Of a stretch of DNA of 64,000 nt, positions 33,431 to 47,934 are shown in pieces. Source of the DNA: Paraburkholderia sp. (GTDB lineage: Bacteria > Pseudomonadota > Gammaproteobacteria > Burkholderiales > Burkholderiaceae); assembly GCA_004322045.1 (NCBI GenBank), contig SCRN01000040.1, positions 186,001 through 250,000 of the forward strand. Direction: 5' to 3'. Below the pieces are notes generated by a model, which saw nothing but the letters and a program-made list of their open reading frames with translations, was not told the DNA's origin and made no database searches. The translations under genes and the position numbers were made by a program. The first letter of the stretch is position 1. The number at the start of each line of letters is the position of its first letter.

Positions 33431-33880
33431 ATGAATCACACCGCCGACGCCAAATTGATGCTGCACGTTTTCGAGACTTGGCACGATACGGTTCGCAAAC
33501 GCGATCTGAAGTCTACCGCCGCGCTATACGCGGAGGATGCGATTCTCGAAACGCCGTTGGCGCTCGCCGTCTACCCGGAGCGGCAGTCGGGCGTCCTCAT
33601 CGGCCGCTCGACGATCCTCACGTTCTTCGAAGACAGCATCCGCAAGTTCCCGAGCGATCTTTCGCAGTGGTACCGAACCGGTGTCTTTTTCGTCAACGGC
33701 AGGCAACTGACCTGGGAATACCCGCGCGTCGCGCCGGCCGGCGATCAGGTCGATCTCATGGAGATGATGGACATCGGCGAGCACGGCCTCATTGCGCAAC
33801 ACCGCGTGTACTGGGGCTGGAACGGCGTGAAGTTACTGGCTCGCGCGCTGAACGGCGTCGGCGAGCGCGCCGCTCGCTAA
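33431..33880 (+). CDS. SnoaL-like / NTF2-fold protein
   Basis: A 149-residue protein of the NTF2-like superfamily. The start MNHTADAKLMLHVFETWHDTV and the AALYAEDAILETPLALA and FFVNGRQLTWEYPR segments are typical of SnoaL-type domains, which form a conical pocket and act as isomerases, cyclases or ligand-binding proteins. A GGAG ribosome site precedes the ATG. It is the first gene of a three-gene unit (SnoaL, FAD/NAD(P)-binding, GST), behind a promoter shared in form with the N-N-bond-type cluster at 37060. Its reaction is unknown. Confidence 0.8.
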   Translation: MNHTADAKLMLHVFETWHDTVRKRDLKSTAALYAEDAILETPLALAVYPERQSGVLIGRSTILTFFEDSIRKFPSDLSQWYRTGVFFVNGRQLTWEYPRVAPAGDQVDLMEMMDIGEHGLIAQHRVYWGWNGVKLLARALNGVGERAAR

Positions 33881-33972
33881 CAGTGGAGCCGGTTCCGATA
33901 CGGCTAGCGAGCGCGGCGGCGATAAAAGGCGCGACGGTGGCTTTGAATCGCACTTCGATTCTCAGGAGCGTT

Positions 33973-35463
33973 ATGGCAGCAAGGCGAGGTGAGCGCCGGC
34001 TGGTGATCGTGGGCGGCGGCGCGAGCGGCGTCGCCGCATTCGTTGCAGCGGTGCGATACGGCGTTGCGCGGTCGATCGAGCTTGTCGATCCGAGAGGCAT
34101 CGGGCGCAGCACCGCGTTCGCGGCAAAGCATCCGGCGCTGCTTTGCAATACGTCGGTCGAGACGATGTCGATCGTCGACGACGATCCCGATGACTTCCTC
34201 GCGTACTTGCAATTGATCGGCGTGATGGCGACGCGCGACGGGTTCGTTCCGCGTGCATACGTGTCCGGATACCTCGCGTCGCGATATGACCGATACGCCG
34301 CGCTCGCGCGCGCTTCCGGCATCGAACATCGACTCGTGACCGCCGCCGCGCTTCGCATCGAACGCATGTCGGCCAGCGAGTACCGGGTCGTGCTCGAGAA
34401 CGGCGTGACATTGCCTGCGACCGATGTCCTCATCTGCACGGGGCATGGGGCGCCGTACGTTCCGGACGCCGTCAGGCCGCATCTGGGAAAGCCGCTGTTG
34501 TTCGAGAGCCTCTACCCGGAAGCGCACGTTCTGGCTGAACTCGAGGCGCGCTCGCGCGTGCTGGTTCTGGGCAGCCGGTTGTCTGCGCTCGATTCCGCGT
34601 TACTGCTGTGCGCGGCCGGGCATTCGATCGACATCGTCTCGCCATCCGGGCGTTTGCCCGCGGTCCGCACGGCTACGCCGCGTGCGTGCCCGGTGCCGGT
34701 CGATGCGGCAGCGCTCGCACGGTTGGACTTGGATTGCGCCGCCGCCACGCTGTCGTGGCGGCTCTTGCGAATCGTCGCACGCGCGGCGCGCGCGGTGCAT
34801 AAACGTCCGTTGAGCGCTCAGGTCGAGCGCGCCCGCGAGCCGATCGAGCGCATGCGGCGCGAGGCCGAGCTCGCGCGGCGCGGCGCGACCGATTGGCAGG
34901 AGATTCTCGTCGCGCACATGGACGCTGCACAGATACGCTTGCACGATGAGCCCGTCGAACGCCAGCGTCATGCGCTGGCCGAATGTTCGCGCGTCGTCGG
35001 ACGTTACTTGTTCGCCTGTCCGCTGCAAAGCGCCGACGCGCTGATCGAATACGCGCAAGCGCAGCGCTTGACGGTCAGCGCGGCGACGCCGGCTGCACTC
35101 CATCGCGGCGCTCGGTGGACCGTGCGCTGGGACGACGGCGGACTGGACGAGTACGATGCGATCGTCTGCGCGACCGGTTTTTGCAAAGCGCCGCTCTATG
35201 CAAGTGCACACGCAGTCGCGCTAGGCGAGCAAGCGGTAGGTGCCGGCGAGAGCTTGCGCGTGGGCCCCGACTTGCGCGTGTCGCTGCCAGGGCTCGCCCA
35301 CCCAGAACGCATATGGACGCTCGGCCTCGCGTCGCAATCGGGCGCACCAATCGTCAACGCGGTCTACCAAGCCGTGCGTCAGGCGCACGAGCTTTGCCGG
35401 TCGTGGCAAGCGGCCGACGCCGCGGACGCGTTGCCGAGATTCGTAGCCGAGGAGGCGGAATGA
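33973..35463 (+). CDS. FAD/NAD(P)-binding oxidoreductase
   Basis: A 496-residue flavoprotein of the FAD-NAD(P)-binding family. The first Rossmann motif is RLVIVGGGASGVAAFVAAVR; LPATDVLICTGHGAPYVP marks the FAD-domain strand and VLVLGSRLSALDSALLL the second dinucleotide fold. A late ATG motif (AIVCATGFCKAPLY) is also present. Members hydroxylate or oxidise small substrates, often in biosynthetic clusters. A CAGGAG site precedes the ATG; the frame is open far upstream through the SnoaL gene but without similarity. Its stop overlaps the GST start (ATGA). Confidence 0.85.
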   Translation: MAARRGERRLVIVGGGASGVAAFVAAVRYGVARSIELVDPRGIGRSTAFAAKHPALLCNTSVETMSIVDDDPDDFLAYLQLIGVMATRDGFVPRAYVSGYLASRYDRYAALARASGIEHRLVTAAALRIERMSASEYRVVLENGVTLPATDVLICTGHGAPYVPDAVRPHLGKPLLFESLYPEAHVLAELEARSRVLVLGSRLSALDSALLLCAAGHSIDIVSPSGRLPAVRTATPRACPVPVDAAALARLDLDCAAATLSWRLLRIVARAARAVHKRPLSAQVERAREPIERMRREAELARRGATDWQEILVAHMDAAQIRLHDEPVERQRHALAECSRVVGRYLFACPLQSADALIEYAQAQRLTVSAATPAALHRGARWTVRWDDGGLDEYDAIVCATGFCKAPLYASAHAVALGEQAVGAGESLRVGPDLRVSLPGLAHPERIWTLGLASQSGAPIVNAVYQAVRQAHELCRSWQAADAADALPRFVAEEAE

Positions 35464-36161
35464 AGCTTTACGGAGATCGCGGATCGAGCAATACGCGCCG
35501 CGTACTGACGGTTATCGCTCACCTGAATTTGCAGGTCGAATTCGAATTCGTGAACCTGTTCGTCGGAGAAAATCGCAAGCCCGCGTATCTCGCGCTCAGT
35601 CCGAGCGGTACGATACCGGCCTTCGTCGACGGCGACATCGCGTTGTTCGAAGCGTCCGCCATCATGATCTACTTGGCGGAGCGAGCCGGCTCTACGCTTT
35701 GGCCGGCGGGCGCTGCGCGCTTCGAGGTGCTCAAGTGGATGTTCTGGGCCGCCGAGCATTTCCGGCGGGGGCCGGCGGTGCTCATCGACGAGCGCTTCAT
35801 TCATCGGCTCAGGGGGCAACCCGAGCGCCCGGCATTGGTTGCCGATGCGTTGAACTCGATTCATCGCTACGCGGCCGTGCTCGACCGGCATGTGCGCGAT
35901 CGCGCATTTGTGGCCGGCGAGACGCCGACGCTGGCCGATATCGATCTCGCTTCGCCGTTCAGCCACGTGCCGCGCACCCGTGCGCCGTTCGATGCGTATC
36001 CCAACCTGTGTGCATGGCATGCGAGGCTGGCCGATGCGATACCGGCCTGGCGCGCGACCGGAGACGATTTGGAGCGGCGGATCGCCGAGATCGAAGCGTC
36101 GTTCGCCTATGGCGACGCCTCACGCCTTGGCTTGCCTGCCCCCGCCGTCACACCCGGCTGA
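35460..36161 (+). CDS. Glutathione S-transferase
   Basis: A 233-residue GST. The N-terminal thioredoxin-like domain starts MKLYGDRGSSNTRRVLTVIA, with Ser9 or Ser10 as likely catalytic residue, and has GTIPAFVDGDIALFEASAIM with the glutathione-binding Glu-Ala/Ser pair. The C-terminal helices carry GETPTLADIDLASPF, the conserved Asp motif. It is coupled by ATGA to the FAD-binding oxidoreductase gene. In this context it may add or remove a thiol during biosynthesis, or protect against an electrophilic product; both are inference. Confidence 0.9.
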   Translation: MKLYGDRGSSNTRRVLTVIAHLNLQVEFEFVNLFVGENRKPAYLALSPSGTIPAFVDGDIALFEASAIMIYLAERAGSTLWPAGAARFEVLKWMFWAAEHFRRGPAVLIDERFIHRLRGQPERPALVADALNSIHRYAAVLDRHVRDRAFVAGETPTLADIDLASPFSHVPRTRAPFDAYPNLCAWHARLADAIPAWRATGDDLERRIAEIEASFAYGDASRLGLPAPAVTPG

Positions 36162-36179
36162 GATCCAAGAGCGCGCGGG

Positions 36180-36917
36180 TCAAGCGCTTTCCCGATACTC
36201 GTTAAAGCCTGTTGCCGCGTTTCGCAGCGCATCGAGTTCGATGCCGAAATGTTCGCGCAGCGCTTCCGAGCCGGCTGGCGTAATCGCGACCGCACGCGTT
36301 TCCTGTCCGCGCTTGAGCCACGCCCAGGCGCAGAAAGCGTTCATCAGATGGGCGCCGAGCGGCCCGGCGATATGGTATTGCCGCTCCGTCCAATCGAGGC
36401 AGCGGTGGGCGTGGCCGGTTTGGTTCGGGAACGGGCCGCCGACATCCAGCCCAAGGCGTTGCAGCAGCGCATGTCCAGCCGGTGTGAGTTCGTATTCATA
36501 GTCGCTGCGCTCGGCGAGATACCCGCGGCCGATCATCGCTTGCGTGACGGCCACGCCGACTTGGCCCGCCAGATGGTCGTAGCAGCAGCGCGCAAAGCGC
36601 AATTCGCGTGCGCAGCGATTGGGCGTCGAACGCCATTCGGGCGTGACCGGGCCGACCGAGGCCAGGCTTTCGAGCACGCGCGGCACATGCGGGCCCGCCA
36701 GGCTGTAATAGCGGTGCCGCCCCTTGCTCTCGACGCGCAGCAAGCCGCCATCCAGCAGCTTCGACAAGTGCGAACTCGCCGTTTGCGCGGTCACGCCGGC
36801 TGCATCGGCGAGCGCACCTGCGGACCGGGCGAAGCCGTCTGCGAGCGTAATGAGGATGATCGCGCGCACCGGCTCTGCGATCAAATGCGCGACGGTGGAA
36901 ATATTGTGCTGACTCAC
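36180..36917 (-). CDS. ArsR-type winged-helix transcriptional regulator
   Basis: A 245-residue regulator. Residues 1-80 form an ArsR-type winged helix: VRAIILITLADGFARSAGAL, the recognition helix TAQTASSHLSKLLDGGLL and the wing VESKGRHRYYSLAG. The remaining 160 residues form a C-terminal domain without the Cys metal sites of ArsR proper. Translation begins at GTG behind GAGGG. It lies between the two arms of the putative biosynthetic locus and is divergent from the MFS exporter gene, so it may control the cluster. Whether it also binds the 16-bp dyads is not known. Confidence 0.87.
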   Translation of the reverse strand: MSQHNISTVAHLIAEPVRAIILITLADGFARSAGALADAAGVTAQTASSHLSKLLDGGLLRVESKGRHRYYSLAGPHVPRVLESLASVGPVTPEWRSTPNRCARELRFARCCYDHLAGQVGVAVTQAMIGRGYLAERSDYEYELTPAGHALLQRLGLDVGGPFPNQTGHAHRCLDWTERQYHIAGPLGAHLMNAFCAWAWLKRGQETRAVAITPAGSEALREHFGIELDALRNAATGFNEYRESA

Positions 36918-36957
36918 TGTTGCCCTCAGGTTCGAACAATCTATTTATCGTTTTTTG

Positions 36958-36973
36958 TAGTTTTTTAAAACTA
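36958..36973. promoter_or_regulatory. AT-rich palindrome in the regulator-exporter gap
   Basis: TAGTTTT (36958-36964), TT, AAAACTA (36967-36973): a perfect dyad 41 bases upstream of the regulator GTG on the minus strand. It is a second candidate operator in this gap, with different sequence from the 16-bp dyad, and suits autoregulation by the ArsR-type protein. Confidence 0.45.
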
Positions 36974-36984
36974 TCGCGAAATAC

Positions 36985-37028
36985 TTCGATACGCTTCGAA
37001 GCATTCTCGATGAGTACGAGATTATAGT
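36985..37028 (+). promoter_or_regulatory. Dyad-controlled promoter of the exporter/N-N-bond gene cluster
   Basis: TTCGATACGCTTCGAA (36985-37000), 22 bases, TATAGT (37023-37028). Dyad and spacing copy those at 33331-33374 with a single base change. The expected start is near 37035, giving a short leader of about 25 bases before the GTG of the exporter gene. No -35 consensus is visible, so an activator binding the dyad at about -42.5 is likely. Confidence 0.7.
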
Positions 37029-37059
37029 CAACAGACCATTCCGAACCGGACTCATTGCT

Positions 37060-38430
37060 GTGAATGAAACGAGCGAATATAAAAAAAGGGTATTACTGGC
37101 GACGAGTTTGAGCTATGTCGTAGTCATTCTCGATACGACAATCGTCAATATCGCGCTCGCCAAAATCGCCGCCTCGCTGGGCGCCGACGTGGCCGGGCTG
37201 CAGTGGGTCGTCAATGCCTATACGCTGACCTTCGCAAGCCTGTTGCTGACGGGCGGGCTGCTCGGCGACCGGCTCGGCGCCCGCAACGTCTACTTGACGG
37301 GACTGCTCGTCTTCGCGGCGGCTTCCGCGCTGTGCGGCTTCGCACCGAATCTGCAGGTCCTCGTCCTCGCGCGCGTGATGCAAGGCATCGGCGCCGCGCT
37401 GCTCGTGCCTTGTTCGCTGACGCTGATCAGTGCGGCGTATACCGACGCGCAGCAACGTGCGGGAGCCATCAGCGTTTGGGCAGGGTGCGGCGGCATTGCA
37501 ATGGCGGCCGGTCCGCTCGTCGGCGGCTTGCTCGTCCACTGGCTCGGATGGCGCAGCATTTTCGTCGTCAACGTGCCGATCGCCGCGTGCGGCGCCTGGC
37601 TTACGCTGCGCATCCCGGCCACGCGCCGCGCTCGCGTCGAACACATGGACTTCGCGGGCCAAGCCGCGGCCATCGTCGCGCTTGCCTGTTCGGTGGCCGT
37701 GTTGATCGAGGGCGCGAAGCTCGGCTGGCGCTCCGCGCCTATCGTGACCGGCATCGTGGCGGCCGTCGCGGGCTGGATCGCGTTCGTCCTGATCGAACGC
37801 AGGCGCGCGCGGCCGATGCTTCCGCTCGCGCTCTTTCGTCATCCGGTGTTCTCGGCCTCCGTGTTCGTCTCGCTGATCTCCGCGCTCGTCTTTTACGGTC
37901 TGCTGTTTTTGCTGAGTTTGTACTTTCAGGAAGGCCGCGGCTGGCAATCGTTGCAGACCGGTCTCGCGTTTCTACCGCTCACGGTGATGGTGACGGCGGG
38001 CAGCTTTTCGGCAGGCCGGCTCGGTGCGGCTTACGGCACCGGTCGCGTCGTGATCGGTGGCTTCTTGCTCTATGCAATCGGGTTCGCGGGGTTGCTGGCG
38101 CTCGCGCACGATGCGCCGTATTGGCGTATCGCCTTGTGCTTCCCGGCCGTGGGCTTCGGCTCCGGGGTCATCACGCCGGCCGCCACGGCAACGCTGCTCG
38201 GCGCCGTCGACAAGACGCGCGCCGGTGTCGCCGCCGGCGTGCTCAACGCGAGCCGGCAGACCGGTTCCGCATTCGGCGTCGCGATCTTCGGCTTGCTGCT
38301 CGGCGCGTCGCAACCGGCAGGCGGCGTGCATGCCGCCGTGAGCCTTGCGATCGTGCTGTCGCTGCTCGCGGCCTTCTCTTGGCGCATCACGTTGTTGCTT
38401 GCCGCACGAGCGCGGGGCGCCGTCGCCTGA
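37060..38430 (+). CDS. MFS drug exporter (DHA2, EmrB/QacA type)
   Basis: A 456-residue major facilitator with about 14 hydrophobic segments. It has the DHA2 signatures LDTTIVNIALAKIA in helix 1, LLGDRLGARNVYLTG in loop 2-3, LARVMQGIGAALLVP (motif B) and GPLVGGLLVHWLGWRSIF (motif C of antiporters). It starts with GTG. As first gene of the cluster with an N-hydroxylase, cupin and MetRS-like ligase, it most likely exports the product or confers self-resistance. The direction and product are inferred. Confidence 0.88.
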   Translation: MNETSEYKKRVLLATSLSYVVVILDTTIVNIALAKIAASLGADVAGLQWVVNAYTLTFASLLLTGGLLGDRLGARNVYLTGLLVFAAASALCGFAPNLQVLVLARVMQGIGAALLVPCSLTLISAAYTDAQQRAGAISVWAGCGGIAMAAGPLVGGLLVHWLGWRSIFVVNVPIAACGAWLTLRIPATRRARVEHMDFAGQAAAIVALACSVAVLIEGAKLGWRSAPIVTGIVAAVAGWIAFVLIERRRARPMLPLALFRHPVFSASVFVSLISALVFYGLLFLLSLYFQEGRGWQSLQTGLAFLPLTVMVTAGSFSAGRLGAAYGTGRVVIGGFLLYAIGFAGLLALAHDAPYWRIALCFPAVGFGSGVITPAATATLLGAVDKTRAGVAAGVLNASRQTGSAFGVAIFGLLLGASQPAGGVHAAVSLAIVLSLLAAFSWRITLLLAARARGAVA

Positions 38431-38450
38431 TTCTCGCTGCGTTTTATCGC

Positions 38451-38473
38451 GTCCGGGCGCGCCGCGCCCGGAC
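38451..38473 (+). repeat. Strong hairpin between exporter and N-hydroxylase genes
   Basis: GTCCGGGCG (38451-38459), loop CGCCG, CGCCCGGAC (38465-38473): a 9-bp perfect GC-rich stem in the 93-base gap. No T-tract follows. It may act as an attenuator or mRNA processing site that sets different levels for transporter and enzymes. Confidence 0.6.
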
Positions 38474-38523
38474 ATTTGCATGCCCGCTGTTTCACTGTCG
38501 CGTCGCCCATACAAGGACTTGAA

Positions 38524-39852
38524 ATGCGCTATTCATCAACCAACGGCCCGATCGACCTGGTGGGAATCGGGATCGGGCCGGCCAACTTGAGCCTTGCAGC
38601 ACTGCTCAAGCGCCATCCCCGCGTGCGCGCCCGCTTCTTCGAGCGCCGCGCGCAATTTCAATGGCACGCCGGCTTAATGCTGCCCAACGCGTCGTTGCAA
38701 GTCCCTTTTCTAAAGGACTTGGTCAGTCTCGTCGATCCGACGAGCGAACTGTCGTTTCTGCAATTCTTGGCCACGCATAAGCGCCTGTTGTGCTTCATCA
38801 ATGCCAATTTTCCGCAAGTGCTCAGACGCGAATTCAACCAATACTACCGGTGGGCGTGCGAGCAATTGGACAGCCTCGAGTTCGGTCGCGAAGTGGATGC
38901 GGTCGAACTCGACGGCGAGACCTTGATCGTGCGCGGCAACGGCTGGAGCCAGCCGACCCGCAGCGTGGTGCTCGGCACCGGGCTGCAAGCGGCCGTCCCC
39001 GACTGCGCGAAACCGTGGCTCAGCACCACCTTGCTCCATGCGTCGCAGTACTTGATCAACAACAATGCGGTGGAAGGCAAGCGCGTCGTCGTGATCGGCG
39101 GCGGGCAAACCGGCGCGGAAGTGTTTCATCATTTGCTGTCCGATTCGGGCGCGATGCCGGCCAGCGTGACTTGGGCGTCGCGTCGATGGAATTTCGCGCC
39201 GCTCGACGAATCGTCGTTTACGAACGAGCTCTACACGCCCGGCTATAGCAATTACTTCTACGACTTGCCCGAGACGCTGCGCGCCACGCTGTTGGCCGAA
39301 CAAAAGCTTGCGAGCGACGGCGTGTCCTCCGCGCTGCTCGAAGCGATTTATCGCCGGGTCTACGAACTGCGTTACGTCACCGGCATGTCGTGCAATTTGC
39401 AATTGCGGCCGGCGCGCGAATTGATCGCCGTCTCGCGGCGGGGCGAGGGCTGGTCGCTCACGTTCAGACACCTGCAGCGTCAAACACACGAGACCATCGA
39501 TGCCGACATCGTCGTGCTTTGCACGGGCTACGGGTATGGGATGCCCGCGTGCCTGGACGCCATTGCCGATCGGATCGAGCGCAACGGCGACGGCTATGTC
39601 GTCAACCCCGACTACTCGGTTCGATGGGATGGTCCTAAGGGCTGCCGGCTCTATGTGCAGAACGCGGCGAAGCATCAACGCGGCATCGCCGATCCGAACT
39701 TGGGCCTGATCCCGTGGCGGTCTGCGCAGATCATCAACAGCGTGGCGGGATGTCAACTGTATGACGTCGACGAAGCGGCGCCGTTCGTCCATTGGGAGGC
39801 GCAGCCGATGGCCGTGCAAAGCGGGACCCCGGACTTGGAGATGATGTCGTGA
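38524..39852 (+). CDS. L-lysine/L-ornithine N-hydroxylase-like flavin monooxygenase
   Basis: A 442-residue class B N-hydroxylating monooxygenase like IucD. It has the FAD motif VGIGIGPANLSLAALL (residues 13-28), the NADPH motif VVVIGGGQTGAEVFHHLL, the substrate-region FTNELYTPGYSNYFYDLPE and the late ATGY-type motif VVLCTGYGYG. It is predicted to hydroxylate the side-chain amine of lysine (or ornithine) using NADPH and O2. The next four genes are not siderophore genes but a cupin, two amine oxidase-like flavoproteins and a MetRS-like protein. In N-N-bond pathways N-hydroxylysine is the first intermediate. An AAGGAC site precedes the ATG. Confidence 0.9.
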   Translation: MRYSSTNGPIDLVGIGIGPANLSLAALLKRHPRVRARFFERRAQFQWHAGLMLPNASLQVPFLKDLVSLVDPTSELSFLQFLATHKRLLCFINANFPQVLRREFNQYYRWACEQLDSLEFGREVDAVELDGETLIVRGNGWSQPTRSVVLGTGLQAAVPDCAKPWLSTTLLHASQYLINNNAVEGKRVVVIGGGQTGAEVFHHLLSDSGAMPASVTWASRRWNFAPLDESSFTNELYTPGYSNYFYDLPETLRATLLAEQKLASDGVSSALLEAIYRRVYELRYVTGMSCNLQLRPARELIAVSRRGEGWSLTFRHLQRQTHETIDADIVVLCTGYGYGMPACLDAIADRIERNGDGYVVNPDYSVRWDGPKGCRLYVQNAAKHQRGIADPNLGLIPWRSAQIINSVAGCQLYDVDEAAPFVHWEAQPMAVQSGTPDLEMMS

Positions 39853-40271
39853 GCGCCGCATCGAATGAAGCGACGGCCGCAGTGAACGAGCGCCAATTGC
39901 CGGTTGGCCACGGCGAGGGGCGTGCGCAATCGGTCTTGGCTGTGCCGAGGGCGCCTGCGATCGAGGAGGCGGAGGAAACGGTCGACCTGCCGGGCGTGCG
40001 GCTGTTCATGCATGCATTCGTCGATCGGTTAGGCAACGCGCCGCTGCGCAGCTCGCGCTTCACGATCGAGCCCGGCTGCGGCACGGGGGAAGACCGGCAC
40101 GCCGTGCATGAGATTTGGTTCGTGGCGAAAGGCCAACTCGATGTCTGTTACGACGGCGAGTGGTATCGCGTGGAAGCCGGACAGGCGCTGTTCTTCGAAC
40201 CGTGGCGGCCGCACTTCACGCGCAACGCTGGTGACGAAAGCGCGCAGATCTTTTCGGTATGGTGGGCGTGA
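39849..40271 (+). CDS. Stand-alone cupin domain protein (N-N bond formation candidate)
   Basis: A 140-residue single-domain cupin. The first 45 residues are polar; the barrel spans about 47-140. Metal-ligand candidates are His84, His87 and Glu88 in EDRHAVHEIWFVAKG, and His122 in FFEPWRPHF. It starts with GTG, and the stop of the hydroxylase overlaps this start (GTGA), so the two are coupled. In the known hydrazine-forming enzymes a cupin of this size is fused to a MetRS-like domain and carries out the rearrangement that makes the N-N bond. Here it is a separate polypeptide, with the ligase 1.2 kb downstream. Confidence 0.82.
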   Translation: MSAASNEATAAVNERQLPVGHGEGRAQSVLAVPRAPAIEEAEETVDLPGVRLFMHAFVDRLGNAPLRSSRFTIEPGCGTGEDRHAVHEIWFVAKGQLDVCYDGEWYRVEAGQALFFEPWRPHFTRNAGDESAQIFSVWWA

Positions 40272-40272
40272 C

Positions 40273-41346
40273 ATGAAGCGCGATTACGATCTGGTGATCG
40301 TCGGCGGCGGCATCGTCGGTGCGTGGACCTTGTGGCTGGCGCAGCGGCGCTTTCCGCAATGGCGAATTTTGCTCATCGAGCGCTTTCGCAATAGCGAGGG
40401 TGCGACGGCGCATTCGGCGGGGGTGCTGCTCGCCACGGGGCGCACGCCGCGCGAACGACACCTCGCCGCGCTAGGGGCGCAACTGTACAGTGAAATCCGC
40501 GCCTCGTTGAACTTGCGCACGAGCGCGGCGGACGTGTTTTGGGTCACGGCCGCCGCGAACGCACCGGCGTTGCGCGAGGTCGCGGTCGATTTCGCGATCG
40601 ACGAGACCCCAGTATCGCCGCGGGCATTGCAGGGCCGCTTGCCGGCGCCGCTCGAGCTAGCCGCGAACGAGGTGTTGCTGCGCGGCGGGCAAGCCGTGAG
40701 CCACGATCCGGCGTCGATCGCGCGCGCGCTGATCGAGGCGACCTTGCGTGCGCCGCAAGTGTTCTGCGTCGAAGGCGCGGGCGTGCGCGCGCTCGCGCGT
40801 CACAAAGTAGGCGTCGAAGTGCGGCTCGATGACGGCTGCGCCGTCTATGCAGCGCGAGCGGTGGTGGCCGTGGGGCCGTGGCTCGTCGGCGAGCCGTTCG
40901 CCCAAATGTTCGGCGCACTTTCGCCGGTGCGCGCGGTGCGGATCAAGAAGGTCGTCGCGCTGCACGTCGACCGTGTGCCACCGCCCGATGCCGCTGCCGT
41001 ATTCCTGCCGCAGGCAGACGCGTATTTGATGCCCTTGCCGCTGCGCAAACAGTGGTTGTTCAGCTTCCGCGCAGACGAATGGGACTGCCGGCCGCTGAAG
41101 CACGCGCTCGAAATCTCCGCTCAGGACCGTGAAGCCGCGCTGCGTATCGTCGATCGCTATGGGCTTGGCCCGCGCGACGCGTACCGCGGTGGCCGCGTGT
41201 TCTGCGACGCCTATACGCCTACGGGCGAGCCGCTCGTCGAGCGGGTGCCGGAAGCCCCGATCGTCCTCGCAGGTGCCGGTAGCGGTGCGGGGTTTCGGCT
41301 ATCACCGGGGCTTGCGCACGAAGCATTGCGTCTTCTGACCGATTGA
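40273..41346 (+). CDS. FAD-dependent amino acid oxidase-like protein 1
   Basis: A 357-residue flavoprotein of the D-amino-acid oxidase / glycine oxidase superfamily. The N-terminal FAD motif is YDLVIVGGGIVGAWTLWLAQ, the ATAHSAGVLLATG stretch follows, and AARAVVAVGPWLV is the strand before the substrate domain. The C-terminus AGAGSGAGFRLSPGLAHEAL contacts the flavin. In hydrazine pathways such an enzyme oxidatively cleaves the hydrazine-linked lysine, releasing hydrazinoacetate and 2-aminoadipate semialdehyde. It begins one base after the cupin stop. A second, distinct paralogue is at 43083. Confidence 0.85.
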   Translation: MKRDYDLVIVGGGIVGAWTLWLAQRRFPQWRILLIERFRNSEGATAHSAGVLLATGRTPRERHLAALGAQLYSEIRASLNLRTSAADVFWVTAAANAPALREVAVDFAIDETPVSPRALQGRLPAPLELAANEVLLRGGQAVSHDPASIARALIEATLRAPQVFCVEGAGVRALARHKVGVEVRLDDGCAVYAARAVVAVGPWLVGEPFAQMFGALSPVRAVRIKKVVALHVDRVPPPDAAAVFLPQADAYLMPLPLRKQWLFSFRADEWDCRPLKHALEISAQDREAALRIVDRYGLGPRDAYRGGRVFCDAYTPTGEPLVERVPEAPIVLAGAGSGAGFRLSPGLAHEALRLLTD

Positions 41347-41358
41347 CGGTTCGGCCGT

Positions 41359-41370
41359 TCGAACGTTCGA
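41359..41370. repeat. 12-bp palindrome between the oxidase-like and MetRS-like genes
   Basis: TCGAACGTTCGA is a perfect 12-bp palindrome in the gap of about 100 bases, the largest in the enzyme part of the cluster. It shares TTCGA half-elements with the cluster dyads but lacks a clear -10 downstream. A minor internal promoter or operator is possible. Confidence 0.4.
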
Positions 41371-41449
41371 CGGTTCTACGGCTAGGCGGCCGCCCGTGTC
41401 ACGCGTGCGCCGCTATTTCCGCCGGCTCTTTTCCTTCTTCTGGATCGCT

Positions 41450-43090
41450 ATGGACGCCACCTCTCGCAGATTCTTCTTGATGCCGATTCCACCGACGCCG
41501 AACGGGCGCTTGCATCTCGGCCATATCGCCGGTCCCTATTTGCGTATGGACATGCTGGGCCGTCACCTGCGCATGCTCGGCCATCGCGTCGATGTCGTCT
41601 CGGCCGTCGACGGCTTCGACTCTTACGTGTTGTGGAAGGCGCTGCAGGAAAACCGCACGCCGCAGGAGGTGTGCCGTGACTATCACGCTCGCATCGCACG
41701 CGACCTCTCGGCGCTCGATATCGTCGTCGATGATTTTCTCGACCTGGTGCAAGGTCCTTACGCGAACCGGCATGCCGAGAATGCGCGGCGTGCGCTCGCG
41801 CGTTTGGTGGAGCAGGGACTGACAGAGACGATCGTCGAAAAAGTCTTGTATAGCCGCGCAACGGGCCGTTATCTCGCGGGCGCTTGGCTCGTCGGACGGT
41901 GCCCGCAATGCGATGCGGACGCGGCCGGTTACTTCTGCGAAGCGTGCGGCGCGCATTTTCGGCCCGAGTCGATGGTCGAGCCGAGAGCGCGCGTGGGCGA
42001 CGAGGCGCTCGAATGGCGCGAAGTCGAGAGCCTGTTTCTGCGTATCGACGATCAAGCGGCCCTGTTGCGCATGATCGCTGCAAGCGGTGCGCCACCGCGG
42101 TTCGTCGAGGTGGTTCGCCGCTTTCTCGAGCAGGAGGCGAGGCGCGTGCGGCTGACCGCACCGGGGGAATGGGGTGTCGCGTGGAGCGCGGACCGGTTCG
42201 GCAATCCGCGCGTGTTGTTCGAGGCCGGTTGGGAATATGCGTTGACGTGCGGCGATCGCTGTGCGGAGCGGGTGAGCGAAGCCGACGACGCGGACGGCAC
42301 GCACCCCATGGCGCGCGGCAGCGAGACGACCACACTCGTGAGTTTTGGCATCGACAACGCCGTCCTTCTGCTAGCGGGTAGCGCGGCGGTGATGGGGGCG
42401 TTGCCGGAGTGCAAGCCGTTCGACTATGCGCTGACCAACTACTTCTACAACCTGCAAGGCGCCAAGTTTTCGACTAGCCGGTTGCATGTCGTGTGGGCGG
42501 CCGATATCGTTGAGGCCACGCCTGCGACCAGCGATGCGGTTCGCTATTTTCTCGCGCGAGAAAGCCCGGAAGAGGGGACGACGAACTTCGACGTCGATGC
42601 GTTTATCGCTTTTGTGAACGATGAGCTGGCTGGCACCCTGCAGGCTCGCATTCATGAGGCCAGGGCGGCGCTCGAGCGCGTGATTGGCCACTCGATGCGC
42701 GTCGGGGTTGCTTGGCAAGCGCAGATCGCCGCCGCGCTCGAAACACTGGACGCATCGTTCCGGCTGCATGCCGTCACTGTCCGCGGCGCATGTGCGGTGC
42801 TACGGGCGTGGTCCGTGCGGGCGGTGACCGATCTAAGCGATCCGGAGCAAGCGTATGGTTGGCTCGCCGGGCTCGCCTGTGTCGCGTTCCCTGTGATGCC
42901 TCGCCTCGCGTCCGACATATGGCATGCCCTTGGCCACGAGGGCGCACCGATGCGATCGGAATTGCCAAGCACGACGCAGCCTCGCGGTGGATTATCCGGG
43001 CGCGTGTGGTTCGCGCCGCTCATGCGCGATTCGCTCGATGCGTGCCTGCCGCCTGCGCTGGTTGCGGACAGAAGTGCAGCACATGCGTGA
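41450..43090 (+). CDS. Methionyl-tRNA synthetase-like ligase (N-N bond pathway type)
   Basis: A 546-residue class I synthetase-like protein related to MetRS. It keeps the HIGH-type motif (LHLGH, His22 to His25), a zinc knuckle with Cys151/Cys154 and Cys163/Cys166, and a KMSKS-like loop changed to KFSTS (Lys339 to Ser343). The C-terminal anticodon-type helical region is divergent. The context of N-hydroxylase, cupin and oxidases matches hydrazine synthetases, where this domain activates an amino acid (glycine in the studied case) with ATP for transfer to N-hydroxylysine. The ATG is chosen from MetRS alignment; an upstream GTG at 41396 with AGGCGG is possible. A housekeeping role in translation is unlikely. 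Confidence 0.82.
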   Translation: MDATSRRFFLMPIPPTPNGRLHLGHIAGPYLRMDMLGRHLRMLGHRVDVVSAVDGFDSYVLWKALQENRTPQEVCRDYHARIARDLSALDIVVDDFLDLVQGPYANRHAENARRALARLVEQGLTETIVEKVLYSRATGRYLAGAWLVGRCPQCDADAAGYFCEACGAHFRPESMVEPRARVGDEALEWREVESLFLRIDDQAALLRMIAASGAPPRFVEVVRRFLEQEARRVRLTAPGEWGVAWSADRFGNPRVLFEAGWEYALTCGDRCAERVSEADDADGTHPMARGSETTTLVSFGIDNAVLLLAGSAAVMGALPECKPFDYALTNYFYNLQGAKFSTSRLHVVWAADIVEATPATSDAVRYFLARESPEEGTTNFDVDAFIAFVNDELAGTLQARIHEARAALERVIGHSMRVGVAWQAQIAAALETLDASFRLHAVTVRGACAVLRAWSVRAVTDLSDPEQAYGWLAGLACVAFPVMPRLASDIWHALGHEGAPMRSELPSTTQPRGGLSGRVWFAPLMRDSLDACLPPALVADRSAAHA

Positions 43091-44213
43091 GACCGCCGAC
43101 ATCGTCGTGATCGGCGGCGGGACGACCGGCTGCGCGATCGCATGGCACCTTGCGCGCGGTGGGCTGCGCGTGCGACTCGTGGAGCGCACGCGGATCGGCG
43201 CGGGATCGTCGGGGGCCTCGCCCGGAATCGTTCGGCAGTATTACTCGGACTCGGCGCTCGCAACGCTCGCTTGCGAGGGGCTCAATGTCTACCGGCATTG
43301 GCGAGAGGTTGTCGGCGGAGATTGCGGTTATCGGCGCACCGGTTTTTTGACGGCTGTGCCGATTTCCGAGGAGCAAGCAACACGCGCGCATGTGCGCTCG
43401 CTGCAAGCGATGGGTATCGAACTGCAATGGATACCCGCCGAGACGATGCGAAGCCGGTATCTGGATCTTGCGCTCGACGATCTCGCAGGCGCTGTGTTCG
43501 AGCCCGATGCCGGGTACTGCGACGCGCGAGCGACGGCGGCGAGCTATGCCGCTGGCGCGCGCTCGCGCGGTGCGGCCATCGACATCGGCCGCGCCGTCCG
43601 GCGCATCGTCACCGAAGGCGGACGTGTCGCCGGGGTCGAGACCGATCGCGGGCGCATCGATTGCAGCATCGTCGTCAACGCGGCTGGGCCTTGGGCTGCG
43701 GCGCTGGGCAAGGGGTGTGGGGCGGCGTTGCCAATCACCGCATCGCGCCAATGCGTGGCGATCGTGCAGGTAGAGGAAGACGATGCGAGCGAAGCGTTGC
43801 CCGGCATGTCGGACCGGTGCGCAGGCTTTTATTTGCGCCCGGACGTGCCTGGCCATTACTTCATCGGCTCGCTGCGGGCGGACGACTCAGGGCCGGCAGA
43901 GCCGGACCGATTGGATTGCTCGATGAGCGATGTACAGGCTGCGCGCTACCGAAATCGGGCCGCGCGAAGGTTCGCGCGGCTGACCGATGCCGTTCCTGTC
44001 GGCAGCCGCGTGTCGTTCTTCGACGATACCCCTGATGGAAATCCGTTGTTTGGGCCTGACCCGCGCGTGCAGGGCCTGTTCGTAGCGGCGGGTCTTTCGG
44101 GACACGGCTTTAAATTCGCCCCGCTGTTTGGTCGTGCGGTCGCGGACTGGGTTTCGACCGGTACGGTGTGTCAGCGGATGTCCGCATTCAAAGTGGAGCG
44201 CGTGTTGGCGTAA
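43083..44213 (+). CDS. FAD-dependent amino acid oxidase-like protein 2
   Basis: A 376-residue flavoprotein of the sarcosine oxidase / glycine oxidase group. It starts with the FAD motif ADIVVIGGGTTGCAIAWHLA, has the covalent-flavin-type region GAGSSGASPGIVRQYYSD, and ends GLFVAAGLSGHGFKFAPLFG, as in monomeric sarcosine oxidases. It overlaps the MetRS-like gene by eight bases, so it belongs to the cluster. It may perform the C-N cleavage proposed for the other oxidase, or a further oxidation of the hydrazine. The two paralogues share the fold but little sequence. Confidence 0.85.
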   Translation: MRETADIVVIGGGTTGCAIAWHLARGGLRVRLVERTRIGAGSSGASPGIVRQYYSDSALATLACEGLNVYRHWREVVGGDCGYRRTGFLTAVPISEEQATRAHVRSLQAMGIELQWIPAETMRSRYLDLALDDLAGAVFEPDAGYCDARATAASYAAGARSRGAAIDIGRAVRRIVTEGGRVAGVETDRGRIDCSIVVNAAGPWAAALGKGCGAALPITASRQCVAIVQVEEDDASEALPGMSDRCAGFYLRPDVPGHYFIGSLRADDSGPAEPDRLDCSMSDVQAARYRNRAARRFARLTDAVPVGSRVSFFDDTPDGNPLFGPDPRVQGLFVAAGLSGHGFKFAPLFGRAVADWVSTGTVCQRMSAFKVERVLA

Positions 44214-44381
44214 GGCGGCGTGAGGGCTTTCTGGCCGCGGTCTAAATCTGGTGCTCGATGAAACCCGCGCCATCGTTGGCGTCGCAAACCCAGGCTCGGC
44301 CGATTCTGGACGGTCGGGGAAAGGCGCACGCGAGGGCGGAAGGGGCAGATGGAGGGCAGATGGACAAATCGCAAAGTTAGA

Positions 44382-44418
44382 TTGTATCAATATCGACATA
44401 GCTGTAGCATATTCTACA
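44382..44418 (+). promoter_or_regulatory. chrB promoter with operator-like dyad over the start codon
   Basis: TTGTAT (44382-44387), 17 bases, TAGCAT (44405-44410) fits a sigma70 promoter whose start would fall at or next to the chrB ATG at 44418. TGTAG-N6-CTACA (44403-44418) is a dyad spanning the -10 and the A of the ATG. No ribosome site precedes the ATG. A leaderless, self-repressed chrB transcript is inferred. Confidence 0.5.
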
Positions 44419-45395
44419 TGAATACATTGTCGACTTGGTCAATGCTCGTGCTGACGCTGCCCACTGAGAATGCGACCGCGCGTATGCGGTTTTATCGGGC
44501 ACTGAAGTCCAAGGGCTGTGCGGTCCTACGGGACGGCGTCTACCTTTTGCCGTACAGCGAGGCGCGCGAAGAGGCGCTGCGCGAGCTCGCCGGTGCGATC
44601 GCGGAAAGCGGCGGCACGGCTCATCTATTTCGAGCGCCGAGCCTCGACGCGTCGCAGGAGGACGAGTTCCGAGCCTCGTTCGACCGGGAAGGTGACTACG
44701 ACGCCTTCATCGGCTCGCTCGCGGAGGCGCGAAAAACGATTTCGGGGCAATCGGCCGCCGAGTTGACCCGGCTGCTACGCCGCCTGCGCAAGGATTACGA
44801 ACTCATCCAGACAATCGACTATTTTCCTGACGATGCCGCCACCCGGGCAGAGGTGGCCTGGCAGGACTTCGTCGAGCTTGTCGATACAGTGCTTTCGCCC
44901 GGCGAGCCGCATCCTGCGGAACGCGCCATTCGTCTGCTTTCACGCGATGACTACCAGGGCCGCACTTGGGCCACGCGTCAACGGATGTGGGTCGATCGCG
45001 TAGCGAGTGCCTGGCTCATCCGGCGCTTCATCGATCCGGACGCGCATTTTCTCTGGCTGCCGTCGCCGGATGCCTGCCCGGCAGATGCCATCGGTTTCGA
45101 CTTCGACGGCGCGGCGTTCACCCATGTAGGCGAGCGCGTGACCTTTGAGGTGCTGATTGCCAGCTTCGGCCTCGACACGGACCCGGCGCTGCTGAGACTG
45201 GGCGAAATCGTCCATGCGCTCGACGTAGGCGGGCCGGCTGCTCCCGAGACAGTCGGCTTCGAAGCAGTGATGGCAGGCACACGCCGACGTGTCGACAACG
45301 ACGATCAATTGCTCGAGCAGATGAGTCCGGTAATGGACGCGCTTCATACGCATTTCGCCGCGAACGCAAAGGAAGAATCAGGGAGACGCTCTTGA
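44418..45395 (+). CDS. chrB: Chromate resistance regulator/sensor ChrB
   Basis: A 325-residue ChrB protein. The N-terminal domain (WSMLVLTLPTENATARMRFYRAL to about 170) and the C-terminal domain with TWATRQRMWVDRVASAWLIRRFIDPDAHFLW are both characteristic. ChrB senses chromate and controls chrA; its C-terminal domain resembles rhodanese-free ChrB-type metal-binding folds. It starts at an ATG without a ribosome site and is coupled to chrA, whose possible TTG start overlaps the chrB stop. Confidence 0.9.
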   Translation: MNTLSTWSMLVLTLPTENATARMRFYRALKSKGCAVLRDGVYLLPYSEAREEALRELAGAIAESGGTAHLFRAPSLDASQEDEFRASFDREGDYDAFIGSLAEARKTISGQSAAELTRLLRRLRKDYELIQTIDYFPDDAATRAEVAWQDFVELVDTVLSPGEPHPAERAIRLLSRDDYQGRTWATRQRMWVDRVASAWLIRRFIDPDAHFLWLPSPDACPADAIGFDFDGAAFTHVGERVTFEVLIASFGLDTDPALLRLGEIVHALDVGGPAAPETVGFEAVMAGTRRRVDNDDQLLEQMSPVMDALHTHFAANAKEESGRRS

Positions 45396-45397
45396 GC

Positions 45398-46576
45398 ATG
45401 GTCACCGCTGCCGCCCCCGCTTATTCATTGGGGCAACTCGCCCGATACATGTTGCGTCTCGGCACATTCGGCTTTGGTGGGCCGGTCGCCCTTGCGGGCT
45501 ATATGCGGCGCGATCTCGTCGAACGTCTGGGCTGGATATCCGAATCGGACTACAAGGAAGGCCTCGCGCTGGCGCAGCTTGCGCCCGGTCCGATGGCTGC
45601 GCAACTCGCGATCTATCTCGGCTTCGTCCACTACCGGATTTTGGGCGCGACGCTCGTCGGGTTCACCTTCGTCTTACCCTCGTTCGTGATGGTCGTGGCG
45701 CTCGGTTGGGCCTATGCCCACTTCGGCGGCCTATCGTGGATGCAGGCGGTGTTCTACGGCGTGGGCGCGGCCGTCGTTGGCATCATTGCCATGAGCGCAT
45801 ATAAGCTCACGACGAAGACTGTCGGCAAAGACAAGCTGCTGTGGACGATCTTTCTCACGCTTGCAGCGGTCACCTTTATGACGGAATCGGAGATTGCATG
45901 GCTATTCATTGCCGGGGGGCTGGTCGGCTGGCTCTGGCGCGCTCCGCCGAAGTGGCTGCATAAGGGGGGCGTGAATGCCCTTGCTGCCGCGAACTTAGCT
46001 GCGGCAAGCGGCATTGCCGCTGGACTCGACTGGCCGCTCCTTGCTCAGATCGGCGCGTTCTTCACGAAGGCCGGCGCGTTCGTGTTCGGCTCGGGGCTTG
46101 CCATTGTCCCCTTCCTTTACGGTGGCGTCGTGACCGAGCATCACTGGCTCAACGATAAGCAGTTCGTCGACGCTGTCGCGGTTGCCATGATCACACCGGG
46201 ACCGGTCGTCATCACCGTCGGCTTTATCGGCTACCTCGTCGCGGGGCTGCCGGGTGCCGTGGTCGCGGCCCTCGGCACTTTCCTGCCGTGCTACCTCTTC
46301 ACGGTGATCCCCGCGCCGTACTTCAAGAAGTACGGTCGCCTACCCGGCGTCAAAGCATTCGTCGACGGTATTACCGCGGCGGCAGTCGGCGCCATTGCGG
46401 GTTCGGTGATCGTGATCGCCAAGCGTTCGATCATCGACGTCCCGACCCTCGCCATCGCCCTCGTGACAATCGCCCTGCTGTGGCGTTTCAAGAAACTTCA
46501 GGAACCGGTCATCGTCACGGCGGCAGCACTCCTCGGGCTCGTTATTTATCCGCTTATCCATTCGCACGCTATCTGA
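45398..46576 (+). CDS. chrA: Chromate transporter ChrA
   Basis: A 392-residue CHR-superfamily transporter that pumps chromate out of the cell. It has two homologous halves, each starting with a GxxxFGGP-type motif: LRLGTFGFGGPVALAGYM and GAFVFGSGLAIVPFLYGGVV. The ELAQLAPGP-type motif is present as LALAQLAPGPMAAQLAIYLG. About ten hydrophobic segments are seen. An in-frame TTG six bases earlier overlaps the chrB stop and sits at better distance from GGGAG, so the true start may be 45392. It forms an operon with chrB. Confidence 0.93.
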   Translation: MVTAAAPAYSLGQLARYMLRLGTFGFGGPVALAGYMRRDLVERLGWISESDYKEGLALAQLAPGPMAAQLAIYLGFVHYRILGATLVGFTFVLPSFVMVVALGWAYAHFGGLSWMQAVFYGVGAAVVGIIAMSAYKLTTKTVGKDKLLWTIFLTLAAVTFMTESEIAWLFIAGGLVGWLWRAPPKWLHKGGVNALAAANLAAASGIAAGLDWPLLAQIGAFFTKAGAFVFGSGLAIVPFLYGGVVTEHHWLNDKQFVDAVAVAMITPGPVVITVGFIGYLVAGLPGAVVAALGTFLPCYLFTVIPAPYFKKYGRLPGVKAFVDGITAAAVGAIAGSVIVIAKRSIIDVPTLAIALVTIALLWRFKKLQEPVIVTAAALLGLVIYPLIHSHAI

Positions 46577-46737: not shown

Positions 46738-47799
46738 CTAGTGCCGATGGCGGTGATGGATATCCGGGAAATGCGCATGCGAGTGCGTAATAGGCAAATG
46801 CACGTGCGCATGGGTATGCGGTTCGTCGCCCTCGTACGGGAAGTCGTGCGTATGCTGATGATGCGCGTCGTGGCGATGCCGGTGCGTGTGCTCGAGCCGG
46901 TCATGCGTATGCGCGTGCTCGTGGCGTTCGCGCACATGCAACCACACGCCGAACGCCATCAATGCCGCTGCGATCCAAAACGTCATCGAAGGCAGCTCCG
47001 GCCAAAGGACGAACGATAGAGCCACGCCGAATAGCGGCGCAACGGAAAAGTAGGCGCCCGTGCGCGCGGTCCCTAGATGCCGCAGCGCGATGACGAAAAG
47101 AACGAGGCTGATGCCATAGCCGGCGAGGCCGGTGAGCATGGCGGCGCCCGCCGCGCCGAGAGAGGGCAATGCCGCCCCCGTTGCGAAGGCAATCGCGAGA
47201 TTGACGGGACCGGCGATCAAGCCTTTCAGGCAAGCGATCACCATGGCATCGTTGGCGGAGACCTTTCGGGTTAGATTGTTGTCGATCGCCCAGCACAGGC
47301 ATGCGCCGAAGATCATCAGGGCGCCGACGGGAATGGCCATCTGACCGGGGCGCCACGATAGCAGGACGCCGCCCGCGACAATGGCGATCATGCCGAGCAG
47401 TAGCTGGCTGTCCACGTTCTCGCGGAAGACGACCCAAGCGATCACCGCGGTCATCACGGCTTCGAGGTTCAAGAGCAACGCGCTGGTGGCCGCGGGCGTG
47501 CTCGTCAAGCCGAGCATGAGCAATGCCGGGCCGGCGACGCCCCCGGCGAGGATCGCGCCGAGCAGCCACGGCCATTCGGCTTTTTGAATGCGATGCTCGT
47601 TTGGCGGCTGTGCGCGGGGGCGCCGCACGCGCCGAGCAGCGATGCCGAGACCCAACCCGAGCCCGCTGCCAAGATAGAAAAGGCCAGCCACGAGGAAGGG
47701 CGACATGGAACCCAACAGCGATTTGGCAAGCGGCGTTGCGGCGCCGAACAAGGCGGCTGCGGCTAGGGCGGTAAGGATCGCGGCGGGGCGTGAATTCAT
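46738..47799 (-). CDS. EamA/DMT family transporter with histidine-rich C-terminal tail
   Basis: A 353-residue inner-membrane protein with two EamA repeats (about 10-140 and 150-285), ten hydrophobic segments in all. The last 66 residues form a cytoplasmic or periplasmic tail with 24 histidines, arranged as HxH pairs (for example HAHTHDRLEHTHRHRHDAHH). Such tails bind Ni, Zn, Co or Cu and are usual in metal transporters and chaperones, not in EamA exporters. The ATG at 47799 is chosen; a GTG four codons upstream is possible. It lies next to the chromate resistance pair and downstream of an MFS exporter gene. Confidence 0.85.
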   Translation of the reverse strand: MNSRPAAILTALAAAALFGAATPLAKSLLGSMSPFLVAGLFYLGSGLGLGLGIAARRVRRPRAQPPNEHRIQKAEWPWLLGAILAGGVAGPALLMLGLTSTPAATSALLLNLEAVMTAVIAWVVFRENVDSQLLLGMIAIVAGGVLLSWRPGQMAIPVGALMIFGACLCWAIDNNLTRKVSANDAMVIACLKGLIAGPVNLAIAFATGAALPSLGAAGAAMLTGLAGYGISLVLFVIALRHLGTARTGAYFSVAPLFGVALSFVLWPELPSMTFWIAAALMAFGVWLHVRERHEHAHTHDRLEHTHRHRHDAHHQHTHDFPYEGDEPHTHAHVHLPITHSHAHFPDIHHRHRH

Positions 47800-47907
47800 G
47801 GGGTGGGGCACGGCAATGAGCGAGCCGAAAACAACCGGGTGGCGAGCGATACGCCAATGATCGCATAGCCGATCGTGCCCGCCGCATTGCGTGGGGCGCA
47901 GTGGCGC

Positions 47908-47934
47908 TCAGGTGGGTCAGGTGAGTCAGGTGAC
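47908..47934. repeat. Three tandem 9-bp units at the end of the MFS gene
   Basis: TCAGGTGGG, TCAGGTGAG and TCAGGTGAC follow each other, the third covering the MFS stop codon. Two are outside the coding sequence. This is a small tandem duplication without an evident role. Confidence 0.6.

Follow-up and report, generated by a model that had tools for sequence, protein, structure and literature searches.

Ten genes spanning 10.8 kb, at positions 33431-44213 of a 64,000-nucleotide stretch of Paraburkholderia sp. DNA (contig SCRN01000040.1, positions 186,001 to 250,000, from a genome of 6.0 Mb; the whole stretch is referred to as the window), very probably form a biosynthetic cluster. It would be built on a hydrazine synthetase whose zinc cupin and methionyl-tRNA synthetase (MetRS)-like parts are encoded by separate genes. 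An earlier note on this DNA had described six genes at 37060-44213, namely an exporter, an N-hydroxylase, a cupin, two flavoenzymes and a MetRS-like protein, and had read them as a locus for nitrogen–nitrogen (N–N) bond formation. The six genes were found to be open, adjacent and all on the plus strand, with the spacing between neighbours ranging from an 8-base overlap to a 103-base gap, and their assignments agree with Pfam and NCBIfam. The unit itself is longer than was thought, with four additional conserved genes upstream at 33431-36917, one of them on the minus strand. By homology, the N–N bond reading holds, as it draws on an RHS1-like cupin, a non-housekeeping MetRS-like protein and an amino-acid-type N-hydroxylase.

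The proposed hydrazine synthetase core

The stand-alone cupin (39849-40271, plus strand, 140 aa) has as its top PDB match 5UQP, which is RHS1 (1.8e-13; 39% identity over 76 aa). RHS1 of Rhodococcus jostii has been shown experimentally to convert an O-acyl-hydroxylamine ester into an N–N bond, and its zinc ligands are Asp63, His65, Glu69 and His103 (Zhao et al., 2021, PMC8664883). In the alignment, D82, H84, E88 and H122 of the window cupin correspond to RHS1 positions 63, 65, 69 and 103, such that all four zinc ligands, the catalytic Glu included, are retained. Across the window and 20 of the 59 matching loci, the H, E and H ligands are present in 21/21 cupins, and D in 19/21, with Glu in the remaining two.

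The MetRS-like protein (41450-43090, plus strand, 546 aa) is the putative amino-acid-activating half of the synthetase. It carries the ATP-binding motifs HLGH (22-25) and KFSTSR (339-344), with K339 invariant in 11/11 sequences. A rooted tree of 48 rows was built from the window, 38 of the 98 matching loci (duplicates included) and nine housekeeping rows. The housekeeping rows, which come from eight genomes and include the genome's own MetRS, fall on one side with a support of 100/99. The window protein lies on the other side, together with a Rhodococcus protein (L031), whose long branch makes its placement unsure, and both Nocardia ninae proteins (L083 and L104), one of which presumably belongs to the dob cluster. 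The earlier note had counted a grouping with housekeeping MetRS among the findings that would speak against its proposal; the protein stands apart from the housekeeping enzymes. It has been reported that the cupin and MetRS-like parts can in some cases be separate proteins (PMC8664883). Judged by their residues and tree position, the two window proteins belong to this stand-alone hydrazine synthetase family, with the catalysis itself predicted from homologues.

The N-hydroxylase and its likely substrate

The flavin-dependent N-hydroxylase (38524-39852, plus strand, 442 aa) matches PF13434 with 351.9 bits. Its description as IucD-like was right as to family, since it is a siderophore-family flavin enzyme with its best PDB scores against DfoA, SsDesB (6xbb) and a putrescine hydroxylase, yet its residues are of the amino-acid type. 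At the positions of window K64 and N234, KtzI and 9nns (entry title ornithine monooxygenase EtcB, named MbtG in the PDB search) have K and N, whereas in DfoA, 6xbb and 7us3 the first is A or S and the second L. From work on SidA, these two residues are taken to bind the carboxylate and the alpha-amine of the substrate.

Among 81 aligned rows, which include one siderophore-type row from a Pantoea plasmid, K is found in 73 (4 A, 3 R, 1 gap) and N in 77 (4 L). The pair is also present in both N. ninae loci and in Rhodococcus L031. The K64/N234 pair therefore points to an amino acid as the substrate, and a diamine hydroxylase, as the best PDB scores would have it, is unlikely. Lysine is the most likely substrate by precedent, with ornithine and 2,4-diaminobutyric acid (DABA) as further candidates; DobG of N. 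ninae is reported to act on L-lysine (PMC13061610).

Two flavoenzymes of the D-amino acid oxidase family

Flavoenzyme 1 (40273-41346, plus strand, 357 aa) belongs to the D-amino acid oxidase (DAO) family. It has no close PDB relative by sequence; its model, with a predicted local distance difference test score (pLDDT) of 92, has a sarcosine/glycine oxidase fold. Identity to ten aligned sequences from outside the ten-gene block is 28-35%. In many hydrazine clusters of actinobacteria and proteobacteria, for example that of N. ninae (L083), a homologue adjoins the N-hydroxylase.

Flavoenzyme 2 (43083-44213, plus strand, 376 aa) is sarcosine-oxidase-like. Its top PDB match is 1y56_B, which is named sarcosine oxidase under the entry title L-proline dehydrogenase, and it also matches dimethylglycine and sarcosine oxidoreductases and glycine oxidases. 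The sarcosine oxidase family holds the substrate carboxylate through Arg52, Tyr55 and Lys348 (PMC12582975). K344 of flavoenzyme 2 aligns with Lys348 of monomeric sarcosine oxidase (MSOX; 1zov), a position at which 1y56_B has Met, and R51 and Y54 are invariant in 9/9 sequences. By motif, R51 and Y54 are candidate counterparts of Arg52 and Tyr55, a fragment search having given no match. In MSOX, Cys315 is the site of covalent attachment of flavin adenine dinucleotide (FAD); Ser311 aligns with it in flavoenzyme 2, such that the covalent-FAD Cys is not present. Being N-aminoglycine, hydrazinoacetate is nearly isosteric with sarcosine, and by this analogy may be the substrate of flavoenzyme 2. Two DAO-family enzymes were present in 9/9 of the full clusters found.

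Conservation of the ten-gene block and its upstream genes

The four upstream genes were found by comparing open reading frames (ORFs) across ten loci, the window included. The ten genes occur in identical order and strand in eight genomes: that of the window, Trinickia sp. Y13 (L042), T. soli (L035), Paraburkholderia sejongensis (L036), Pseudomonas lactucae (L039), P. veronii (L040), P. trivialis (L041) and one further member of the Pseudomonas sample (L124). All ten are also found in T. fusca (L057), but in a rearranged order. Because the same order recurs in Trinickia, Paraburkholderia and Pseudomonas, the block is far beyond chance, and the linkage of the MetRS-like gene to the cupin and N-hydroxylase, which the earlier note had asked to see in other genomes, is kept in all three genera.

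Outside Trinickia, the flanks are not conserved. Window ORFs upstream of the block match Trinickia sp. Y13 only among the loci compared, and the downstream flank of T. soli is shared with the window. The other flanks tested share nothing in place with it: Pseudomonas L124 and L125 (both sides), the three named Pseudomonas species (L039-L041, downstream), P. sejongensis (downstream) and T. fusca. Scattered flank matches to distant window genes were seen in L124, L039, L040 and L057. The chromate genes ChrB/ChrA (44349-46576) come immediately after the cluster both here and in Trinickia sp. Y13; in T. soli, the genes of window positions 46738-49173 follow directly. An insertion or a loss may account for this difference. 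Shared with Trinickia sp. Y13 only among the loci compared, ChrB/ChrA were rejected as cluster members.

The first upstream gene (33431-33880, plus strand) encodes a SnoaL-like protein of the NTF2 fold family (149 aa). The window protein scores 22.1 bits, below the Pfam cut-off of 27, and the T. fusca orthologue scores 37.4, above it. A homologue with 56% identity lies elsewhere in the genome of a Hyphomicrobiales metagenome-assembled genome (MAG). The third gene (35460-36161, plus strand) encodes a glutathione S-transferase (GST; 233 aa, Pfam) and overlaps the preceding gene by 4 bp. The fourth (36180-36917, minus strand) encodes an ArsR-type (HTH_20) transcriptional regulator of 245 aa and is divergent from the gene of the DHA2-type MFS exporter (37060-38430, plus strand, 456 aa; Pfam and NCBIfam). 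Across the block genomes, identity is 57-94% for the GST and 50-96% for the regulator. At 1e-5, the SnoaL-like, GST and ArsR genes were not found outside the block genomes among the 94 loci searched.

Inverted repeats are present at 36980-37005, between the ArsR-type gene and the exporter, including a short palindrome at 36993-37002. They are a candidate operator, and chance could also explain them. No RNA family was matched at the gathering threshold within 33000-45000.

The second upstream gene (33973-35463, plus strand) encodes an FAD/NAD(P)-binding protein of 496 aa (PF13454), a candidate second N-oxygenase with an FzmM/SidA/PvdA-like fold. It has no real PDB relative by sequence. Its model (pLDDT 82) gave FzmM as the first Foldseek match (8.1e-16). 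The top VIA-align Z scores were those of the bacillithiol disulfide reductase YpdA (23.4 over 304 residues) and PvdA (22.4 over 365), while FzmM reached 21.0 over 457 residues and gave the longest alignments among the rows displayed. The model has the fold of the N-hydroxylating monooxygenases, with two dinucleotide-binding domains, which disulfide reductases also have, and a candidate helical insert within 245-362. FzmM performs a threefold oxidation of the aspartate amine (PMC10404684), and an N-oxygenase role for the window protein appears plausible from the model. Against the N-oxygenases FzmM, CreE and PcxL, identity is 14-16%, and in Z score they are equalled or exceeded by further N-hydroxylases and by reductases. 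FzmM and CreE act with a companion lyase that releases nitrite, whereas no lyase family was matched in the ten genes of the window.

This protein was also considered as a marker of hydrazine clusters and was rejected, with homologues lying amid other genes on Pantoea and Burkholderia ubonensis plasmids and in Pseudomonas L122. Within 5 kb of the Pantoea plasmid homologue there is a siderophore-type N-hydroxylase gene. At 1e-30 or better, the protein was found in 5/398 genomes of the Pseudomonas sample, three at 47-51% identity and two at 35-37%.

Proposed pathway and alternative readings

In the proposed pathway, the N-hydroxylase would hydroxylate an alpha,omega-diamino acid at its side-chain nitrogen; lysine is the likeliest substrate, with ornithine or DABA also possible. 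The MetRS-like protein would adenylate a second amino acid, for which glycine is the simplest guess, and join it as an ester to the N-OH. The zinc cupin would then rearrange the ester to form the N–N bond, and flavoenzyme 1 would oxidise a C–N bond and release a small hydrazino acid. Flavoenzyme 2, the N-oxygenase-like flavoprotein, the GST and the SnoaL-like protein would act after N–N formation: flavoenzyme 2 probably oxidises the N–C alpha bond of the sarcosine-like hydrazino acid, oxidation at nitrogen is the probable task of the N-oxygenase-like protein, and the GST probably deals with an electrophile or has a protective role in the cell. Export would fall to the MFS protein and regulation to the ArsR-type protein.

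Pfam gave no match in the ten genes to nonribosomal peptide synthetase (NRPS), carrier protein, adenylating enzyme or NRPS-independent siderophore (NIS) synthetase families, which agrees with the earlier remark that NRPS, carrier protein and NIS synthetase are lacking. Nor did it match acyltransferase, polyketide synthase, lyase or asparagine-synthase-like hydrazine transferase families. The product is probably a small compound exported by the MFS protein. It had been suggested to be a small hydrazine; the N–N chemistry stands by homology, but since one of the added genes resembles a second N-oxygenase, the pathway may end in an N-oxidised compound instead of a plain hydrazine.

We tentatively propose a carrier-free route as one possibility. 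Here, the free hydrazino acid would be oxidised to a hydrazone by the sarcosine-oxidase-like enzyme and at nitrogen by the FzmM-fold N-oxygenase, yielding a small acid of the diazo, nitrosamine, nitramine or azoxy type, or a derivative handled by the GST. For azaserine, dob and N-nitroglycine, hydrazinoacetate is described as being handled on carrier proteins or as a dipeptide; the last N-oxidation by a metalloenzyme is shown for dob and proposed for the other two (PMC13061610, PMC13274452), and PMC13274452 describes this oxidation as unresolved in azaserine and N-nitroglycine. If true, the carrier-free route would be a flavoenzyme answer to a step carried out elsewhere on carrier-bound or dipeptide substrates.

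A different use of the same enzymes is that flavoenzymes 1 and 2 cut opposite sides of the N–N conjugate to give free hydrazine, or a glyoxylate hydrazone, as a reagent or toxin, with the N-oxygenase-like protein acting elsewhere. The constant pairing of two DAO-family enzymes in the full clusters favours this, as does the report that Spb39 and Apy10, members of one oxidase family, cut opposite C–N bonds of the conjugate; free hydrazine has also been hypothesised for albofungin (PMC11705231). On the other hand, an Afn14-like hydrazine transferase family was not matched in the ten genes. We regard this reading as rather doubtful.

Far less probable is a hydroxamate siderophore cluster in which the N-hydroxylase would supply a small siderophore and the remaining genes would have no part in it. 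The enzyme does belong to the siderophore family, and DfoA of desferrioxamine biosynthesis is its top PDB match, but neither an NIS synthetase, an NRPS nor an acyltransferase family was matched in the ten genes, DfoA, 6xbb and 7us3 differ at both K64 and N234, and the cupin and MetRS-like genes are conserved alongside. A self-protective role for the MetRS-like protein, as an additional methionyl-tRNA synthetase that might resist an inhibitor, is highly improbable: NCBIfam NF008863 (methionine--tRNA ligase) does match it at 677 bits over a cut-off of 551, but Pfam matches the catalytic domain only, while the housekeeping MetRS of the genome also has Anticodon_3 and tRNA_bind, the Tyr of 9/9 housekeeping rows is Thr16 here and occurs in 0/19 hydrazine-synthetase-type rows, and the tree separates the two groups. 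Both readings were rejected on this family, residue, domain and tree evidence.

Several points weigh against the proposed hydrazine synthetase cluster or its details. Among enzymes of known structure, those acting on diamines are nearer to the N-hydroxylase in sequence than the lysine or ornithine hydroxylases, and the K/N pair fails to separate lysine from ornithine enzymes, KtzI having both residues. The MetRS-like protein lies in a 25-row sub-clade (100/100) without L031, L083 and L104, and its amino acid substrate can therefore not be read from the tree. Because Spb39 and Apy10 cut opposite sides, flavoenzyme 1 might cleave on either side. The roles proposed for flavoenzyme 2, the N-oxygenase-like protein, the GST and the SnoaL-like protein come from family or fold, and every reaction, substrate and product, together with export, regulation and protection, is deduced from homology.

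Comparison with known systems

Hydrazine-synthetase pathways are known mostly from actinomycetes. The closest arrangement is that of the RHS1 cluster of Rhodococcus, represented here by L031 (a Rhodococcus sp. DK176 plasmid that carries the RHS1 accession WP_007299751) and L032 (R. jostii RHA1, whose record is unannotated). It likewise has separate cupin and MetRS-like proteins with an N-hydroxylase, which in Rhodococcus is a lysine N-hydroxylase, and identical zinc ligands. The L031 MetRS-like protein has 30% identity to that of the window over 387 aa. L031 differs from the window in the genes nearby, which include those for saccharopine dehydrogenase-like, lysine 2,3-aminomutase, AMP-binding and phosphopantetheine-binding proteins, and tblastn found no homologue of flavoenzyme 1 in it.

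The s56-p1, triacsin, azaserine and dob clusters are described as sharing a lysine N-hydroxylase, a DAO-family oxidase and the cupin and MetRS parts (PMC11705231), although these two parts form one protein there (PMC13061610, PMC11705231) and are separate in the window. In azaserine and dob, an acyltransferase, an adenylating enzyme, a carrier protein and a dehydrogenase are reported to process hydrazinoacetate, with a hydrazone formed on the carrier (PMC13061610, PMC13274452); none of these was matched in the ten genes of the window. The albofungin cluster afn also has separate MetRS-like, cupin and lysine hydroxylase genes (Afn8, Afn9 and Afn18), but Afn14 places the hydrazine on a polyketide precursor (PMC11705231), and the ten window genes are without a polyketide synthase family.

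Actinopyridazinone (Apy9-11) and por of Pseudomonas orientalis, compared by description since their sequences were not found, combine a hydrazine synthetase with an N-hydroxylase, Apy10 being in the Spb39 oxidase family and Apy9 using N4-hydroxy-DABA and alanine (PMC11705231). The section of that review on these clusters does not mention a second flavoenzyme or N-oxygenase, whereas the window has both. Unlike the published hydrazine clusters compared, the window has a sarcosine-oxidase-like second flavoenzyme and an N-hydroxylase-/reductase-like flavoprotein, and its ten genes are without carrier protein, adenylating enzyme and NRPS families. The core is judged to be as known, and the tailoring set not to be described in the literature searched. 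Nor was the ten-gene set found described among the papers listed, as judged by titles and the starts of abstracts; an earlier mention in the phylogeny study 10.1002/cbic.202300838 is possible.

The mining filter of the dob paper would probably pass over the window cluster, because it required Pfam families that the cluster does not have (PMC13061610). The tRNA-ligase name given by NCBIfam to the MetRS-like enzyme may be a case of systematic misnaming that hides such clusters. With two conserved flavoenzymes beyond the known core, further oxidation of a free hydrazine becomes directly testable, and since the cluster has ten genes, no megasynthase family and beta- and gammaproteobacterial hosts, the whole route could be rebuilt in E. 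coli. As the GST and exporter are conserved with the cluster, the compound may be a reactive antimetabolite.

Distribution and possible exchange between clusters

The cluster is uncommon and its distribution patchy. With a threshold of 1e-60, the MetRS-like protein was matched in 10/299 genomes of the family, own genome included, a set containing 11 genomes of the window's genus, again with its own. Four of the ten, all belonging to the window's genus, are of the block type, namely the window's genome and those of Trinickia sp. Y13, T. soli and T. fusca. Across 398 genomes sampled from the phylum, the window's own genome was the only match. The relatives scan took in the best 80 of at least 562 matches. 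No match above 60% identity to the MetRS-like protein was found in 76 plasmid records, and viral contigs gave no confirmed relative. A contig of Paraburkholderia tuberum starts inside flavoenzyme 1; in this draft the best N-hydroxylase match is 39% and the best GST match 36%, with no FAD protein at 1e-10 and no SnoaL-like protein, which may reflect a truncated cluster or an assembly gap.

Trees of the N-hydroxylase and flavoenzyme 1 combined the window sequence with those of 32 and 22 loci, respectively, out of 32 (score limit 70 bits), with support given by the Shimodaira–Hasegawa-like approximate likelihood ratio test (SH-aLRT) only. In these, the T. fusca N-hydroxylase and flavoenzyme 1 group with the block (SH-aLRT 95 and 98). 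The T. fusca MetRS-like protein falls outside the block clade, beside Robbsia (96/94 in one tree, 91/92 in another; approximately unbiased test, p-AU 0.0493). The T. fusca MetRS-like gene (L057:9884-11482) and cupin (L057:13004-13369) have 34-37% identity to the window, and the other eight genes 40-57%. The Hyphomicrobiales MAG (L038) has the reverse pattern, a block-type MetRS with unlike partners. Together, these patterns suggest an exchange of the MetRS-like part, or of the synthetase pair, between clusters. Such an exchange would fit the role of the MetRS-like part as gatekeeper of the amino acid (PMC8664883).

The window's own genome holds a second, distinct hydrazine-synthetase-type cluster (L028:6255-14818; G000:C36:49000-68999) with an N-hydroxylase, cupin, DAO oxidase and MetRS-like protein, and MFS, hydrolase and PreATP-grasp genes nearby. 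Its N-hydroxylase and oxidase each pair with Actinomadura spongiicola L107 (SH-aLRT 99 each). On plasmid p1 of Robbsia andropogonis (L029:3328-11832), a MetRS-like protein and a cupin lie beside a diamine-type N-hydroxylase (A and L), together with three aminotransferase-family genes and a GNAT gene; this may be a hydrazine synthetase that takes an amine in place of an amino acid. In L022:12092-14302 and its Burkholderia relatives L023, L024, L025 and L030, the N-hydroxylase homologue ends a frame of 736-884 aa within hydrazine-type clusters, possibly a fusion or a long false start. In Cytobacillus horneckiae (Bacillota), a flavoenzyme-2-like protein (L092:5534-6697, 25%) is encoded close to a MetRS-like gene of the hydrazine-synthetase type and to a distant homologue of the N-hydroxylase.

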